A stretch of DNA of 64,000 nucleotides, taken from positions 635,001-699,000 of the forward strand of contig NZ_CP058648.1 of assembly GCF_018141405.1 (NCBI RefSeq), written 5' to 3'. Within the stretch, counting starts at the first letter, position 1; the number at the start of each line of letters is the position of its first letter. Source of the stretch: Serpentinicella alkaliphila. GTDB lineage: Bacteria > Bacillota > Clostridia > Peptostreptococcales > Natronincolaceae. Below are positions 45,327 through 53,077 of the stretch, piece after piece. A program made the position numbers and the translations under genes. The notes below the pieces were generated by a model. That model worked only from the letters and a program-made list of their open reading frames with translations, was not told where the DNA came from and made no database searches.

Positions 45327-46343
45327 TTATCCTCTATATCTATTTTTGGTATTTTTTTGCTCTAAAAGGTGAATAGAGTCTAATGCTCTACCAGTTCCTT
45401 TTGCAACACAGGAAACAGCATCTTCTGCAATATATACTGGTATCCCTATTCTCTTCTCGATTAATTTGTTAAGTCCCCACAGTAATGCTCCGCCTCCAGT
45501 CATAACAATGCCATGATCTGCAATATCAGAAGCTAATTCTGGTGGAGTTTTTTCTAAGACAGCATGTACAGCATCTACAATAGCTGAGACATTTTCATCT
45601 AGCGCTTCTAGCATTTCTTCACTATCTACTTCAATATTTACTGGTAGACCAGAAATTAAATTTCTACCTCTAACATTCATCTTAGTTTCTTTATCTCTAG
45701 GATATGCAGCACCTATTTGAATTTTCATATCCTCTGCAGTTCTCTCACCAATCATCACTTTATGTTTCTTTCTCATATAACGAACGATTGCCTCATCAAA
45801 TTTGTCCCCAGCTATTTTTATTGAAGTACTAACTACAATACCACCTAATGAAATAACTGCAACATCAGTTGTTCCCCCACCAATATCTACAATCATATGT
45901 CCTGTTGGTTGAGCAATATCTAATCCAGCCCCTATAGCTGCAGCAATAGGCTCCTCAATCAAATAGGTCATTCTTGCTCCTGCTTCATTAGAAGCATCAA
46001 TTACTGCTCTCTTTTCAACCTCAGTCACTCCACTCGGCACACATACTATTATTTTGGGTTTAAAAAACAATCTTGTTCCCACTGTTTTCCTAATAAAGTA
46101 TTTTAACATTTTTTCTGTAATTTCATAATCAGATATGACACCTTCTCTTAGAGGTCTAATCGCAACAATATTTCCTGGTGTTCTTCCAAGCATATTTCTT
46201 GCATCCTGCCCAACTGACAGTATTTCTCCAGTATTATTATCAATAGCTACAACAGAAGGTTCTTGAAGCACAATACCCTTACCCTTAACAAATACCAATA
46301 CGCTAGCGGTTCCTAAATCAATTCCAATATCCGTACCAAACAT
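45327..46343 (-). CDS. mbl: MreB-like cell-shape protein Mbl
   Basis: A 338-residue bacterial actin: phosphate-1 loop DIGIDLGTASVLVFVKGKG, phosphate-2 loop VDIGGGTTDVAVISLGG, and adenosine loop GIVMTGGGALLWGLNKLI. It forms filaments under the membrane and guides lateral wall synthesis. The position upstream of the FlhO/FlhP-type rod genes and, beyond the insertion, downstream of spoIIID identifies it as the Mbl member of the family. Confidence 0.94.
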   Translation of the reverse strand: MFGTDIGIDLGTASVLVFVKGKGIVLQEPSVVAIDNNTGEILSVGQDARNMLGRTPGNIVAIRPLREGVISDYEITEKMLKYFIRKTVGTRLFFKPKIIVCVPSGVTEVEKRAVIDASNEAGARMTYLIEEPIAAAIGAGLDIAQPTGHMIVDIGGGTTDVAVISLGGIVVSTSIKIAGDKFDEAIVRYMRKKHKVMIGERTAEDMKIQIGAAYPRDKETKMNVRGRNLISGLPVNIEVDSEEMLEALDENVSAIVDAVHAVLEKTPPELASDIADHGIVMTGGGALLWGLNKLIEKRIGIPVYIAEDAVSCVAKGTGRALDSIHLLEQKNTKNRYRG

Positions 46344-46526
46344 TACTTTCCCACCTTTATGATTTTTATATGATGACTGTTATATCTAATGATAAATTTA
46401 TATGGAAGCGAAACAGTCTTTAATTTTTACTATTGTGCCTTAATAAAAGCACCAATAATATTACTTCGATATATTTTTGCAAATTCCTCTAAATATCGAC
46501 TTTTTTTATTATTTTTTTTTAGAAAA

Positions 46527-46563
46527 AATATAGGCCGATGGATTTTTTTCATCGCCCTATATT
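46527..46563 (-). terminator. Terminator of transcripts entering from the BCCT operon
   Basis: An imperfect 13-bp stem (AATATAGG-CGATG with CATCG-CCTATATT, one C-C mismatch) has a loop of seven T and two other bases. Six T follow on the minus strand. It separates the inserted operon from mbl. Confidence 0.78.
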
Positions 46564-46613
46564 GTTCTATTATTTAATTCATATGAATGGTAAAAACAAA
46601 TTTTTATACTCTT

Positions 46614-46635
46614 AAAAGAACGGATCAATCCACTC
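46614..46635. repeat. Left copy of a 22-bp direct repeat flanking the inserted operon
   Basis: The sequence AAAAGAACGGATCAATCCACTC matches 52784-52805 in 20 of 22 positions, same orientation. Some similarity continues to the left (TTTTTATACT against TTTTTATGCT). In this copy the hairpin is broken by the two changes. It looks like a leftover second copy of the spoIIID terminator at the mbl side. Confidence 0.7.
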
Positions 46636-46641
46636 AGATTA

Positions 46642-46671
46642 TTGACATACCCACTTTTGTAGGTTTGTCAA
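46642..46671 (-). other. Interrupted hairpin in the 3' region of the BCCT operon
   Basis: TTGACA-ACC-AC pairs with GT-GGT-TGTCAA around TTTT, with two symmetrical one-base mismatches. No T run follows on the minus strand. It could be a 3'-end stability element of the operon. Confidence 0.4.
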
Positions 46672-46741
46672 AATGTTAACGTTAAAAGCATGCTACTTCA
46701 TCTTTAACCGTTACAATAACATCAACTTTTCCTAAATTCAA

Positions 46742-48334
46742 CTAGCTATATTTTGCTTCAGTACTTGTTTTGTCTATAGATATTATTTCACTGGTTTCTA
46801 ACACAACAGTCTTAGGTGTTAACTGAGCTCCATAATCTTCTTTTAACCACTTTAATAATGAAAACAGCATAGTTATAAGTATTGGCATTAATGGTAAAGC
46901 AACTACAATTGACGCTAGTTGTACAGCTGTTAACCCACCAGTAGCAAGAAGTCCTACAGCAAAAACTCCTAAGAAGATTGCCCATAGAGTTCTATTCCAT
47001 TTATTTGGTTCTTCATGCCCACTAATTTCTTTTGTAACCTGTGCTGAAAGAGTAAATGCAGCTGAGTTTAAAGTTGTTGCCAGAAACACTATACAAAGAA
47101 TAGTAAATATAGGTATAATTAGCCATTTACCTGCTGGTAGAGTGCTCAAAATAGCTATAATTGTACCTGGAGTACCTACTTCACTAACAATCTTCGCCAC
47201 ATCCAAAGCACCAGATGTCTGTACATCTATAGCGTAACCGCCCCATATTGCGAAAAATACCCAACATCCAAAACTTCCAAAAATTAATTCTCCAAATACT
47301 ACCTGCCTAATTGTTCTGCCTCTAGATATTCTTGCAACAAACAATCCCATCATTGGTGCATAGGCAATCCACCAAGCCCAGTAGAATACTGTCCACCCCT
47401 CAGGGAACCCAGCGTTGGCTATTGGATCTGTCCATAGACTAAGTCTTATAAAATCATTAAACATTAAACCAAGACTATTTACCCAGAGATTTAATATGTA
47501 AATAGATGGACCTGCTATAAATACAAATATCAGTAAGAAATAAGCAATGTACGTATTAAGATCAGCAAGTTTTGCAATGCCCTTTTGTAATCCAGCGTAT
47601 ACAGTAATTGAAATAAGACTTGTGAAAATTGTTAATGTAATTAATTGTAGTTGAAAACTCTCTGGTATTCCTAACATATTAGCAATTAATGCTGTTACTA
47701 GAGGTACTGCTAAACCTAAAGATGTTCCAACCCCACCAATCATAGCAAAAATTACCAATGTGTTAATTAATTTACCTAATGTTCCCTCTGCCCTACCACC
47801 TATAACTCCCTTACAAGCAGTGCTGAGTCTTAAAGTAGATGCCCTTTTAACATGTATAGCGTAGGCTATTGGAATTGTCGGCAATGCATATATTGCCCAT
47901 GGCGTAATTCCCCAGTGAAACTGACCTAGTACCCCTGCCCACTCTGCAGCCATAATTGATCCTGCCTCAACTCCTAAAGGTGGTCCTCCCATATAGTAAA
48001 CTGGCTCTATAAACGCCCAGTATACTATAGCAATACCTATACCTGCACAAAACACCATTGCAGCCCAGGTGTAATCAGAAAATTCAGGTTTATCCTCAGG
48101 AGCACCTAATTTTATTCTCCCCCACCGACTAGATCCAAGCCATACAAGAAACAGAACAGAAAACAAACCAAATAGTAAAAATGACCATTTAAAATTAGTA
48201 GTTATAAACGCAAACACCGAATTTACCATAGCGGATCCCTTCTCTGGATTAACCACTAATGATACTGAAAAAAGAAGTGTTACAATAATTCCAGGTAACA
48301 TTAAAGAATAATCTATATTACTCTTATTTTTCAT
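46742..48334 (-). CDS. BCCT family transporter (betaine/carnitine/choline/DMSP type)
   Basis: A 530-residue protein with 12 predicted membrane helices. BCCT landmarks are GIGIAIVYWAFIEPVYYMGGPPLG (about 97-120), FHWGITPWAIYALPTIPIAYA (about 139-159) and VFYWAWWIAYAPMMGLFVARISRGRTIRQ (about 319-347), whose Trp residues line the binding site for a quaternary-ammonium or sulfonium group. It imports such a compound with an ion or by exchange. It is the last gene of a three-gene unit with two CoA-transferases, so the cargo is probably metabolised as a CoA thioester rather than kept as an osmolyte. No large regulatory tail as in osmosensing BetP. Confidence 0.92.
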   Translation of the reverse strand: MKNKSNIDYSLMLPGIIVTLLFSVSLVVNPEKGSAMVNSVFAFITTNFKWSFLLFGLFSVLFLVWLGSSRWGRIKLGAPEDKPEFSDYTWAAMVFCAGIGIAIVYWAFIEPVYYMGGPPLGVEAGSIMAAEWAGVLGQFHWGITPWAIYALPTIPIAYAIHVKRASTLRLSTACKGVIGGRAEGTLGKLINTLVIFAMIGGVGTSLGLAVPLVTALIANMLGIPESFQLQLITLTIFTSLISITVYAGLQKGIAKLADLNTYIAYFLLIFVFIAGPSIYILNLWVNSLGLMFNDFIRLSLWTDPIANAGFPEGWTVFYWAWWIAYAPMMGLFVARISRGRTIRQVVFGELIFGSFGCWVFFAIWGGYAIDVQTSGALDVAKIVSEVGTPGTIIAILSTLPAGKWLIIPIFTILCIVFLATTLNSAAFTLSAQVTKEISGHEEPNKWNRTLWAIFLGVFAVGLLATGGLTAVQLASIVVALPLMPILITMLFSLLKWLKEDYGAQLTPKTVVLETSEIISIDKTSTEAKYS

Positions 48335-48364
48335 TATTACAACTCCTTTACAATATTTTATAAT

Positions 48365-49543
48365 TTAAACTACCTTTTTACTTCTTAGATTTTGAACTTC
48401 CTCAACTGTAAACCCCATTTTAGTAAGTATGTCTTCCGTATGTTCTCCCAGCAATGGTGAAGAAATTTTTATAGCTGGAGGATTCTCGGATAACTTAATT
48501 GGATTTCCAACTAGTTTTATCTTACCTAATCCAGGATCATTAAGTTCAATTATCATATCTCGAGCTTTCAAATGAGGATTTTCGAAAGCTTCCTGTATAT
48601 TCTGAACTGATGCCACTGGAATACCTATTTTCTCCAACTTCTCTACTACTTCATTTCTAGTTTTCTCAGTAAAACTGTCTTCAATAATTTCCTTCAGCTC
48701 AAGATTATTTTTAATACGTGCTTCATTATCTTTGAATTTTTGATCAGAATGTATATCAGGTCCATTCAATACATTACAAAACTCTTTCCACATCTTATCA
48801 TTTTTTACTGCGATACTGACATATCCATCCTTTACTTTATAAACATCACAAGGTGCATAGTGGGCATTCATATTTCCCATTCTACTAATTATTTTACCAA
48901 ATGCCGTATATTCTAATATTGGATTTGTTGCCATTTGAATAAGAGATCCCAACATAGTTACCTCTACCTTCTGTCCCTTTCCAGTCTCTAACTTATTATA
49001 ATATGCAGTTGTTATACCTAAGAGTAACATCAAACCAGTATAACTATCCCCAATCGCTGGTCCAATTTTCGTTGGATCCCCCTCTGGAAATCCAGTCAGA
49101 TCCATAATTCCGCTCATAGCCTGAACAACATTGTCATATGCTGCAAATTTAGATAGTACACCCGAATCACCAAATCCCGATATAGACGCATAAATAATAT
49201 CTGGTTTAATTTCTTTCATCTGTTCATATCCAATTCCATAATTCTCTAAGGTCCCTGCCTTAAAGTTAGAACATACTATATCCGCATCTTTGACTAAATC
49301 GAAAATAATCTTTTTACCCTCTTCACTTTTAATGTTTAGAGTAATGCTTTTTTTCCCTCGATTAAAAGAGCTATAGTATCCACTATAATTGTTTTTAAAT
49401 GGCCCCCACCCCCTTGAAACATCTCCTTCAATTCTTTCTATCTTTATAACTTCTGCCCCAAAGTCTGCTAAGTTTAATGTGCAAAATGGCCCAGCATATG
49501 CATGGGTAAAATCAATTACTTTTACACCTTCTAAAAGATTCAT
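48365..49543 (-). CDS. Class III CoA-transferase (CaiB/BaiF family), catalytic Asp present
   Basis: A 392-residue family III CoA-transferase. The opening LEGVKVIDFTHAYAGPFCT and the block NRGKKSITLNIKSEEGK are typical. The Asp that forms the acyl-enzyme anhydride is present at D166 in GPAIGDSYTGLML. It moves CoA from one acyl-CoA to another acid. It follows its paralogue by 51 bases and precedes the transporter by 30 bases. Likely substrates are trimethylammonium acids such as carnitine or butyrobetaine, or DMSP; the sequence does not decide. Confidence 0.92.
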   Translation of the reverse strand: MNLLEGVKVIDFTHAYAGPFCTLNLADFGAEVIKIERIEGDVSRGWGPFKNNYSGYYSSFNRGKKSITLNIKSEEGKKIIFDLVKDADIVCSNFKAGTLENYGIGYEQMKEIKPDIIYASISGFGDSGVLSKFAAYDNVVQAMSGIMDLTGFPEGDPTKIGPAIGDSYTGLMLLLGITTAYYNKLETGKGQKVEVTMLGSLIQMATNPILEYTAFGKIISRMGNMNAHYAPCDVYKVKDGYVSIAVKNDKMWKEFCNVLNGPDIHSDQKFKDNEARIKNNLELKEIIEDSFTEKTRNEVVEKLEKIGIPVASVQNIQEAFENPHLKARDMIIELNDPGLGKIKLVGNPIKLSENPPAIKISSPLLGEHTEDILTKMGFTVEEVQNLRSKKVV

Positions 49544-49594
49544 TTTATTTCTCCTCTCCTTAAAGCTTTAAATTTTAGAAACTTACCCGATCAT

Positions 49595-50770
49595 TTAATT
49601 TTTTGCACTTTCCATATACTCTTTATTAATTCCAAATTCATTTAATATGTCATCTGTATCTTTTCCAAGTTCTGGTGCACATGAATCAAGTATAATAGGA
49701 GTATCACTTAATTCTATTGGTAGTTTTGGTACTTTGGTTTTACCCACTTCATTATCTACTATTTCCACCATAAAGTCATTTTCAACTATATGTGGATGGG
49801 TTACTATGCCCGGTACATCTAATACTTCCCCACTAGGTATGCCTACGGCTCTACATCTTTTCTCGATGTCGTATTTTGAAGTAGTTACTGTATACGACTC
49901 TACAATAGGTCTTAATTTATTTAGGTAATCATCACATCTTCCTTCATTAGTACTAAACCTAGGATCATCAATTAATTCTGGCATATAAATGACATGCTTA
50001 CATAGGTTTTTCCACTGTTCTTCATTGGCTACACCAATTGCAACGAAACCATCATTAGTCTTAAAAGTATCATAGGGAGCACAGGCAGGATCAAAATTTC
50101 CTTTTCTTGTCTGAATTTCTCCGCTCATAGAGTATGTAGCAGGAGCAGCTTCAATTATCGAGAATAGGGAATCTAATAATGAAACATCTATTTTTTGTCC
50201 TTTACCATTGATTTGTTTATTTATTAGCGCTAGCGTTATCCCTGTCGCTAGGTACCCAGCACCATAATACTCGCCCATAGCTACTCCCGCTTTGATTGGG
50301 TAACTATTAACAGTTCCAGTCATGTCCATAGAAACACCTAAAGCCTGTGCAACACAACTAGAACCTACTTTGTTTTTATACGGACCTGTGTGTCCAAAGT
50401 ATGAGTATGATGCATAAATTATTTTAGGATTTATTTTAATTACATCATCATAACCCAGTCCTAAACTCTCCATAACACCAGGACCATAGCTTTCGCAAAT
50501 TATGTCCACCTTTTCAATAATTTGTTTCAATATCTCTATCTCTTCTCTTTTGTTAATATCTAAAGTCATACTCTTTTTTCCAGAATTTAAGTAATTGAAG
50601 TATAAGCTTTTCCCTGCCTTTTGCGGTTTCCATTTTCTGCTTTTATTGCCTTCGTTAGGTTTTTCTACTTTTATTACCTCAGCTCCAAAACTAGCCAAAT
50701 ACATTGTTGTAAGGTTTCCTGCAAGGTTTTCTGTGAAATCCAGTACCTTAACTCCTCCAAGTGCTTTCAT
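49595..50770 (-). CDS. Class III CoA-transferase homologue, catalytic Asp replaced by Glu
   Basis: A 391-residue paralogue of the next gene, beginning LGGVKVLDFTENLAGNLTTMYLASFGAEVIKVEK, full length and undamaged. The site aligned with the catalytic Asp is E167 in AGVAMGEYYGAGYLA. That suggests either a changed mechanism or a structural partner that pairs with the Asp-bearing protein, as in heteromeric BbsEF or the two halves of DddD. It is the first gene behind a sigma54 promoter, with GAGAGGGGAG before its ATG. Confidence 0.9.
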   Translation of the reverse strand: MKALGGVKVLDFTENLAGNLTTMYLASFGAEVIKVEKPNEGNKSRKWKPQKAGKSLYFNYLNSGKKSMTLDINKREEIEILKQIIEKVDIICESYGPGVMESLGLGYDDVIKINPKIIYASYSYFGHTGPYKNKVGSSCVAQALGVSMDMTGTVNSYPIKAGVAMGEYYGAGYLATGITLALINKQINGKGQKIDVSLLDSLFSIIEAAPATYSMSGEIQTRKGNFDPACAPYDTFKTNDGFVAIGVANEEQWKNLCKHVIYMPELIDDPRFSTNEGRCDDYLNKLRPIVESYTVTTSKYDIEKRCRAVGIPSGEVLDVPGIVTHPHIVENDFMVEIVDNEVGKTKVPKLPIELSDTPIILDSCAPELGKDTDDILNEFGINKEYMESAKN

Positions 50771-50882
50771 TTTAAAACTCCCCTCTCTAAAATGTTTTTA
50801 GATAGTAATATTAACTAAGACTTTATAAGAACATTGACATTTAGTATATTTGTCCTAGTATATTTCTTTGTTAAGTATATAG

Positions 50883-50898
50883 AGCAAAAACTATGCCA
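50883..50898 (-). promoter_or_regulatory. Sigma54 (-24/-12) promoter of the CoA-transferase/BCCT operon
   Basis: On the minus strand TGGCAT-AGTTT-TTGCT matches the sigma54 consensus (TGGCAY-N5-TTGCW) at every conserved base, with GG and GC ten bases apart. It lies about 113 bases before the first CoA-transferase start. The neighbouring gene codes for a sigma54 activator. Confidence 0.85.
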
Positions 50899-50961
50899 AT
50901 CTATACATTGTTAATTTTCCAACATTTATCATGTATACAATCAAATAGTATTTAAATACAA

Positions 50962-50995
50962 AAAAATAGTTATTCAAGTTTGAATAACTATTTTT
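50962..50995. promoter_or_regulatory. Palindrome 1, likely activator binding site (and possible terminator)
   Basis: A 16-bp perfect inverted repeat with a 2-base centre (core TTATTCAA-GT-TTGAATAA). It lies about 65-95 bases upstream of the -24 element, the usual distance for a sigma54 enhancer. A and T tails at both ends mean it could also end the activator transcript. Confidence 0.6.
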
Positions 50996-51043
50996 CAAAA
51001 TCACCTTATAAATATTGATAATTAGCTAATACCTAAGTAGTTA

Positions 51044-51069
51044 AAATCTATTCAATTTTGAATAGATTT
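51044..51069. promoter_or_regulatory. Palindrome 2, likely activator binding site
   Basis: A 12-bp perfect inverted repeat (core CTATTCAA-TT-TTGAATAG) with the same TATTCAA-N2-TTGAATA core as palindrome 1. The two centres are about 78 bases apart. Degenerate related sites follow at 51068-51079 and 51097-51113. Confidence 0.6.
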
Positions 51070-51128
51070 CAAATATGAATAATCGAAAATAAAATTTTAT
51101 TATTGAATAATAATATCTTTGTTAACAG

Positions 51129-52508
51129 TTATTTATTCAATTCATTATCAATATATTTTTTTATAAGTCTATAAGCCTTTGGTTGACTGATTTTAAGCTC
51201 TTGAGCAACCTTAACACTATTTTTATACTTATTATATGTTTTAATAATAATTTGCTTTTCTAGTTCTTCTTTCATTTCATCCAAAGACTTGTTGTCTGTA
51301 TTAATTGTAGTTTTAGGTTTTTCATATACGTATAAATGTTTTGGTATATGCTGCGCAGTAATTTCAATATCCTCAACTAGAACTACAAGCTTTTCAATTG
51401 TATGAGATAACTCCCTAATATTACCAGGCCATGAATACGAACCTATTATCTTAATTGCTTCATTTGATATTGTATGATTTCTTTTATATGCTTTATTAAA
51501 CAAATTAATATAGTAATAAGTTAAGGCCAGTACATCTTCTTTCCTTTCTCTTAAAGAAGGAATTTCTATTTCAAAAACATTAAGTCTAAAATATAAATCT
51601 CTCCTAAAAGTCCCTAAGTCTACCATCTGCAATAAATTACAATTTGTTGCTGCAATTACTCGTATATCAACCCTAATGCTTTTCTGTCCACCAATAGGAA
51701 TAAACTCTTCATCTTGAATTACTTGTAGTAATTTTGCCTGTAGAGCTATTGGTATTTCCGATATCTCGTCCAAAAACAAGGTTCCTCCATTAGCCAATTC
51801 TATTAGGCCTTTTTTACCCTCCTTATTAGCACCTGAAAAAGCTCCTTTACAATATCCAAACAACTCTGATTCAATAAGATTATGACTTATACTTGCACAA
51901 TTAATATTCATAAAAGGTTTATCTCGTCTATCACTTTTTGAATGAATATACTTTGCTAAAAGACTTTTACCTGTCCCTGTCTCGCCCAGTATTAAGCAAG
52001 GAGATTTAACTTTAGAAATCTTCTTACATAAAGAAGTTATTTCTCTCATCTGATCACTTTGATAAATCAAATTCACATCTGAATCAACTAAATTTTTATG
52101 AGTTATCCCTACTTCATTAAATTCGCACTGTTGATGGGAAAGTTTATTAATACTATCTATATCATTCACACTCATTGCTACATATTTTATATCACCATTT
52201 TCATCAAATATAGGAACAGAAACCGTTAAAACATCTGCACCTAGTTTAGTAATTTGTTTGCGAGCTACCATTTTCTTCGTTTTATAAACTATCGGAAGAG
52301 TTGATTGTCCCCAATACGTTCCATCAAAAGATTGAAATTTTTTTCCAATCATACTCTCTGGAGAGACCCCATAATGTCTATAGCTTGCTTTATTTATATA
52401 AACTAGAGTATAATTATTATCAAAAACCATTATTTCGTCATGAAGATTATCGATGATTTCTTTAAAATTATCATTTTCAAAAACTTGCTCAATATTATCG
52501 AAATTCAC
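51129..52508 (-). CDS. Sigma54-dependent activator with PAS domain
   Basis: A 459-residue enhancer-binding protein: N-terminal PAS (about 10-120), central AAA+ domain with Walker A LGETGTGKSLLAKYIH, the sigma54-contact loop written GAFSGA instead of GAFTGA, Walker B GGTLFLDEI, and an R-finger region YFRLNVFEIEIPSLRERKED, then a C-terminal Fis-type helix-turn-helix (KVAQELKISQPKAYRLIKKYI). It should activate the adjacent -24/-12 promoter in response to a ligand sensed by PAS. The GTG at 52508 is chosen since AAGGAGG lies seven bases before it; the frame is open 13 codons further up. Confidence 0.92.
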   Translation of the reverse strand: MNFDNIEQVFENDNFKEIIDNLHDEIMVFDNNYTLVYINKASYRHYGVSPESMIGKKFQSFDGTYWGQSTLPIVYKTKKMVARKQITKLGADVLTVSVPIFDENGDIKYVAMSVNDIDSINKLSHQQCEFNEVGITHKNLVDSDVNLIYQSDQMREITSLCKKISKVKSPCLILGETGTGKSLLAKYIHSKSDRRDKPFMNINCASISHNLIESELFGYCKGAFSGANKEGKKGLIELANGGTLFLDEISEIPIALQAKLLQVIQDEEFIPIGGQKSIRVDIRVIAATNCNLLQMVDLGTFRRDLYFRLNVFEIEIPSLRERKEDVLALTYYYINLFNKAYKRNHTISNEAIKIIGSYSWPGNIRELSHTIEKLVVLVEDIEITAQHIPKHLYVYEKPKTTINTDNKSLDEMKEELEKQIIIKTYNKYKNSVKVAQELKISQPKAYRLIKKYIDNELNK

Positions 52509-52783
52509 GTATAACCCTCCTTGTACTTTGCTACCAAACTTCTTCAACCCACCAATATATCTTAAGTTAAAAAAATATAACCTATTTTGTATAATTCTAT
52601 TTTGATATCTATTACCTTCTTTTATTGACTATATTACATAAATCTAAGTGTAATATGCTCTGCTTAAAATAGAAAAATAGATATTAAATATATCTACTTT
52701 TTTAGTATAACACAGTATTTACTTTTTCAAATGAGTTTGTTTCTTCACCATTATAAATGTTTAATTTTTATGCTAGCACACTG

Positions 52784-52807
52784 AAAAGAGTGGATCAATC
52801 CACTCTT
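52784..52807. terminator. spoIIID terminator and right copy of the 22-bp direct repeat
   Basis: AAGAGTGGA (52786-52794) pairs perfectly with TCCACTCTT (52799-52807) around TCAA, followed on the minus strand by TTC. It lies 10 bases after spoIIID. The same sequence with two changes is found at 46614-46635 at the far edge of the inserted operon. Confidence 0.75.
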
Positions 52808-52816
52808 CTCATGATC

Positions 52817-53077
52817 TTATCTGCTATTAACAGCTTTTTTATATTTCATCCTAGTCGCTTTTCCACCTCTAATATGCCTCTCAGCTTTATTAATATCAAG
52901 AATATTTTTCACTTGATTCGCTACTAAAGGGTTTATCTTAGGAAGTCTTTCCGTTACATCCTTGTGGACTGTACTTTTACTTACGCCAAAAACTTTAGCG
53001 GTTTGCCGTACCGTAGCCTTCTCATCTAAAATAAAATTGGCTATCTGCACAACCCGCTTTTCTATATAGTCTTTCAA
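52817..53077 (-). CDS. spoIIID: Sporulation regulator SpoIIID
   Basis: An 86-residue DNA-binding protein of the mother cell. YIEKRVVQIANFILDEKATVRQTAKVFGVSKSTVHKDVTERL includes the helix-turn-helix (about 21-42), and the C-terminal basic tail (ERHIRGGKATRMKYK) that contacts the minor groove is present. It reprogrammes sigma-E genes. It normally lies directly upstream of mbl; here about 6.5 kb of other genes lie between. Confidence 0.96.
   Translation of the reverse strand: MKDYIEKRVVQIANFILDEKATVRQTAKVFGVSKSTVHKDVTERLPKINPLVANQVKNILDINKAERHIRGGKATRMKYKKAVNSR

Follow-up and report, generated by a model that had tools for sequence, protein, structure and literature searches.

Four genes that stand between spoIIID and mbl in Serpentinicella alkaliphila raise the question of how an operon can enter a conserved gene order when neither an integrase nor a transposase is involved. 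The window, i.e., the whole stretch of DNA that was analyzed, comprises 64,000 nucleotides (NZ_CP058648.1, 635001-699000) of a single chromosome of 3.26 Mb, and positions given without another source refer to it. A preliminary description of this DNA had placed a sigma-54 activator, two CoA-transferases and a BCCT transporter between spoIIID and mbl, which it took to be normally neighbors, and it had proposed an insertion that duplicated the terminator region; all four genes were found (Table 1). A literature search for an operon at the spoIIID-mbl joint of this group returned no paper.

Table 1. Features at the spoIIID-mbl joint of S. alkaliphila (window positions)
Feature	Position	Strand	Remarks
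mbl (MreB-like)	45327..46343	-	downstream neighbor of the insertion
Promoter-like block AGGAATTTGCAAAAATATATCGAAG	46464..46488	-	presumably sigma-H-like; conserved for mbl, intact downstream of the insertion
Further terminator-like stem-loop and T run	46527..46563	-	-16.6 kcal/mol; between mbl-side repeat copy and mbl promoter
mbl-side repeat copy	46599..46635	-	37 nt; weakened stem-loop (two G-U pairs)
Stem-loop downstream of transporter gene	46642..46671	-	-14.8 kcal/mol
BCCT transporter	46742..48334	-	closest solved relative DddT
CoA-transferase 2 (class III)	48365..49543	-	Asp166 kept
CoA-transferase 1 (class III)	49595..50770	-	Glu at the position of the relatives' catalytic Asp
TTGGCATAGTTTTTGCT	50883..50899	-	putative sigma-54 promoter (-24/-12 type) of the three-gene operon, read from sequence
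Palindrome 1	50962..50995	.	16-nt perfect arms; presumed activator site
Palindrome 2	51038..51075	.	TATTCAA-NN-TTGAATA core; presumed activator site
PAS/sigma-54 activator	51129..52547	-	372 bits to the nearest model, PrdR (below the cut-off, 795)
spoIIID-side repeat copy	52763..52805	-	43 nt; strong stem-loop and T run (presumed spoIIID terminator), then a downstream tail
spoIIID	52817..53077	-	upstream neighbor of the insertion; TIGR02844 over cut-off, PF12116

Gene order at the spoIIID-mbl joint

Twenty stretches around mbl were compared, 16 from genomes of the same family and four from the same order, and the family genomes G010, G013, and G018 were left out because their best mbl match was only at the level of a more distant paralogue. 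A second sample, which overlaps with the 16 family genomes, consisted of 80 named spoIID loci. In all 16 family genomes spoIIID is directly followed by mbl on the same strand, with 181-381 nt between the matched ends; among the four same-order stretches one has the two genes side by side, and the other three lack a spoIIID match within the stretch. Both genes are present in 57 of the 80 named loci and were found adjacent on one strand (<1 kb) in 49 of these, with spoIIID inverted in six and with 1.5-1.8 kb between the genes in two. The loci with spoIIID beside mbl at the same joint and on the opposite strand (L104, L105, L106, L107, L110, and L113) are records of Geosporobacter, Thermotalea and Marinisporobacter plus a record that carries the name Lutibacter sp. 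B2 in its deposition.

The BCCT transporter and the CoA-transferases are absent from all 80 named spoIID loci, and matches to the sigma-54 activator, at 35-37% identity, occur in two of them. Because spoIIID and mbl adjoin in 16/16 relatives and the transporter and CoA-transferase genes occur in 0/80 loci, the four-gene operon is an insertion that, within the genomes and loci sampled, is confined to this lineage. Among named relatives, those closest by spoIID (57-64% identity) are Natronincola peptidivorans, Anaerovirgula multivorans and Alkaliphilus species, and a spoIID search for a congener with an empty site returned only named relatives at ≤64% identity. The search of genome contigs with CoA-transferase 1 likewise gave neither a close relative of the operon nor a congener with an empty site.

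If the two sides are rejoined over one copy of the border repeat described below, a gap of ~310 nt results (54 nt from the spoIIID side and 255 nt from the mbl side), which is inside the range of the relatives. On the mbl side the block AGGAATTTGCAAAAATATATCGAAG, which by its consensus is presumably sigma-H-like, has counterparts in the gaps of 10 of 17 relatives (regular expression search). Since the remainder on this side keeps the promoter-like block and a terminator-like hairpin, the insertion sits between the presumed spoIIID terminator and the promoter of mbl itself. In GC and GC3 the operon resembles the neighboring genes, with the exception of the activator gene, which has a lower GC content (29.7%); there is thus no clear compositional sign of a recent foreign origin.

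The cargo operon

The activator is composed of PAS, AAA+ and HTH parts. The element TTGGCATAGTTTTTGCT, which by consensus we take to be a -24/-12 promoter, lies upstream of the first CoA-transferase gene, and the palindromes follow another 63-176 bp upstream. The exact palindrome core occurs at two places in the genome only, both in this operon region, and with one mismatch at two more (reversed-pattern control 2+2). With the promoter, the upstream palindromes, the adjacent activator and a sigma-54 gene all present in the genome, the operon is predicted to be sigma-54-controlled.

The transporter scores 448 bits against DddT, 294 against CaiT and ~229 against BetP. In class III CoA-transferases an Asp is catalytic. 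At the position where CoA-transferase 1 has Glu, this Asp is present in 5/5 phylum-level homologs and in six other single-domain proteins aligned. CoA-transferases 1 and 2 share 37% identity, and CoA-transferase 1 is probably a non-catalytic partner of CoA-transferase 2. Relatives of CoA-transferase 1 were found in 11 of 20 family genomes (cut-off 1e-3), 27 of 391 class genomes (1e-60) and 12 of 398 phylum genomes (1e-80), its own genome counted; they are ≤43% identical and none is close. On plasmids, relatives reach at best 46% identity for the transporter and 35% for CoA-transferase 1, and they stand in other contexts.

The gene company of the activator and transporter in other genomes supports a role of the cargo in importing a betaine-like solute and activating it with CoA. 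In the same-order genome G474 (L177, 7957-15884) an 838-aa protein lies together with a sigma-54 activator and two BCCT transporters; of its two class III domains the first is without the Asp and the second has it, in the same way as the first and second CoA-transferase of this operon. In G606 and G612 an activator-BCCT pair is accompanied by a carnitine acyltransferase-like gene (in G612 by family scan). The cargo would take up and CoA-activate carnitine, DMSP or a related compound under sigma-54 control. It resembles the DddD-DddT and CaiT-CaiB clusters in having a BCCT transporter closest to DddT and class III CoA-transferases; it differs from them in that its CoA-transferases are separate proteins with 18-27% identity to the two domains of the G474 protein, and in that it encodes no lyase, hydratase or dehydrogenase. 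When compared as a possible split DddD, the two CoA-transferases showed no clear pairing with the domains of the G474 protein (26/18% and 27/23%), which is itself DddD-like by architecture only. The G474 cluster is a candidate for anaerobic DMSP use. Benzylsuccinate CoA-transferase (PDB 9fn0) likewise has two class III subunits, and both operon proteins match both of its chains; however, it is no closer to them in sequence than general family members are. The cargo is ordinary, and the case is moderately interesting as a recombinase-free insertion.

The border repeat

The preliminary description had reported the terminator sequence at both borders, and direct comparison confirmed this: 46614-46635 (AAAAGAACGGATCAATCCACTC) and 52784-52805 (AAAAGAGTGGATCAATCCACTC) are identical at 20 of 22 positions in the same orientation. 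The ungapped match reaches 28 nt (46608-46635 and 52778-52805, 86%), and with one 6-nt gap it comprises the two copies listed in Table 1, with ATAAAAATT at the far end, so that the similarity runs past the hairpin into the tail. With ≤3 mismatches the 22-mer (- strand) is found at two loci only in the 3.26-Mb genome, namely both borders; a third listed match is the other strand of the palindrome at the same place, and the reversed-pattern control gave 0. The first 14 letters, with ≤1 mismatch, have no third place in the genome, and this 14-mer is found in 0/19 other family genomes; the sequences of the gap between spoIIID and mbl differ among family members. The exact 18-nt stem-loop sequence was seen in one viral contig only (L188, 195-212).

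As RNA of the - strand, which is the direction of all genes here, the spoIIID-side stretch folds with -19.8 kcal/mol, and the mbl-side copy forms a 7-pair stem with two G-U pairs and -4.5 kcal/mol. The mbl-side hairpin had been described as lost; this applies to the + strand, on which the stem is broken (-2.2), and in the - strand RNA it is weakened and not lost.

Dinucleotide shuffles of the two AT-rich gaps scored as well in 8/2000 and 4/1000 cases (~0.4%), and among 400-bp segments taken elsewhere in the window two of 620 matched the spoIIID-side gap as well. The density of such pairs in 464 kb of this genome predicts 1.5e-4 to 5e-4 of them for these gaps. By the shuffles, the 22-nt border match is only moderately beyond chance. 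It lies below the print threshold of general repeat scans, where it is one of many matches with its score, and it is its location, not the score alone, that makes it notable.

A like insertion in a relative

In G003, a member of another genus of the same family, genes for a TetR regulator, an efflux adaptor and an RND permease stand between an M23 gene and spoIIID, which are close neighbors in most other relatives. This efflux operon is flanked by a perfect direct repeat of 47/47 bp (L011, 5526-5572 and 10713-10759) that takes in the final codons of the M23 gene together with sequence downstream, and of which only two copies were found in that genome (28 of 47 letters searched, ≤3 mismatches). 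The copy near spoIIID continues into a stem-loop of -9.4 kcal/mol; beside the other copy the second arm of this stem-loop is missing. The M23-spoIIID insertion is thus an independent like case at the next joint over. G003 carries a further insertion between mbl and flgG1, the borders of which show no repeat (379/1000 shuffles as good), which means that flanking repeats are not general here.

Repeat scans of 101 stretches (1.76 Mb, redundant) and of 400 kb of G003 together with 464 kb of the S. alkaliphila genome brought out nothing notable besides the 47-bp repeat of G003 and IS elements; the other matches were, by eye, mostly paralogous coding stretches and dispersed or simple repeats. The IS elements are ~2-kb DDE transposase elements, three in S. 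alkaliphila (C1, 592034-594296, 820849-823040, and 858409-860715) with perfect direct repeats of 113, 123, and 133 bp, which are far longer than usual IS target duplications, and one in G003 (C1, 460647-462961) with a perfect 106-bp direct repeat. The first and third element of S. alkaliphila are near-identical, although their repeat lengths differ, and their reading frames look broken. By size, transposase class and repeat length only, these elements resemble the IS1634/IS1549 type.

Origin of the insertion

The insertion is best explained as one with a long target duplication: the cargo is absent from the joint of the relatives, a long repeat in the same orientation stands at the borders, and neither a recombinase nor IS ends were found. 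An insertion between spoIIID and mbl would have duplicated the terminator target and left a copy at each border, of which the spoIIID-side copy would have kept its strong hairpin and the mbl-side copy would have drifted. One guess is that staggered breakage at the stem-loop, followed by fill-in, might underlie the duplication. What had been proposed from the start thus stands well supported as regards the insertion; that it duplicated the terminator is probable and the likeliest reading, which rests on a moderate repeat match and on the analogy with the perfect 47-bp case of G003. Evidence against it is that the border repeat is short, 86% over 28 nt, with its score reached by ~0.4% of shuffles, that no empty site with a single copy was seen among the relatives compared, that the mbl-flgG1 insertion of G003 has no such repeat, that composition gives no clear sign of recent foreign origin, and that 464 kb of the genome yielded no further conspicuous pair apart from the IS elements. 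Taken together, an operon inserted with long duplication of its terminator target and bringing a betaine-like-solute cargo is a reading that we consider fairly probable. An insertion process of this kind has a published precedent: according to papers that cite it, insertion with long target duplication is reported for restriction-modification genes of Helicobacter pylori (Nobusato et al., 2000). As there, the passenger genes have direct target repeats on both sides that exceed the usual length of IS duplications; the differences are that the cargo here is a metabolic operon (in G003 an efflux operon) and that the host belongs to a family of the Clostridia.

The explanation that the operon arrived by ordinary illegitimate recombination, the border stem-loops being two terminators alike by chance or convergence, agrees with the 8/2000 shuffles that reach the score and with the mbl-flgG1 insertion of G003, by which repeat-free inserts occur at this locus. 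Moreover, as both border copies are terminator-like hairpins, one arm predicts the other. We nevertheless regard it as unlikely, since the 22-mer is confined to these two loci genome-wide, the similarity extends beyond the hairpin, and so few such pairs are expected in the two gaps. Direct repeats of 28-47 nt at the 3' end of a gene are typical of tyrosine-recombinase sites, and the repeats of both inserts would fit the remnant of a site-specific integrating element with attL and attR at the spoIIID terminator, the recombinase of which was lost as in cis-mobilizable elements. This origin is still less likely, as no recombinase is found among the ORFs of either insert, nor among the protein families of the spoIIID-mbl insert, both inserts are compact operons with different targets, and the exact 18-mer is known from that one viral contig only.

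Movement of the operon in trans by an IS1634/IS1549-like transposase would account for a long duplication, as the direct repeats of these elements are long and variable, reportedly 8 to 514 bp, and according to a 2008 paper there was no mechanistic model for them. Elements of this look are present in both genomes. The operon inserts, in contrast, are without transposase and without terminal inverted repeats: neither has the CCTGA-type inverted IS ends (CCTGACTTTAGAA / CCTGAGTTTAGAA type), the ends of both show no inverted repeat, and a comparison of insert ends with IS ends gave no match, which makes such movement very improbable.

Implications for the family

As the insertion shows, cargo is tolerated in the gap that separates the spoIIID terminator from the mbl promoter. 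Two independent inserts lie next to spoIIID, both beside stem-loops; the repeat of one is perfect (47 bp) and that of the other is eroded (~40 bp). A more general idea, which is speculative and at present doubtful, is that in alkaliphilic Clostridia a host process may insert whole operons at stem-loop terminators in conserved joints, free of recombinases and with duplication of some 40-50 bp of target, in which case metabolic and efflux operons would be cassettes defined by their target repeats only. The two inserts are concrete sites for studying long target duplication outside Helicobacter and outside restriction-modification genes.
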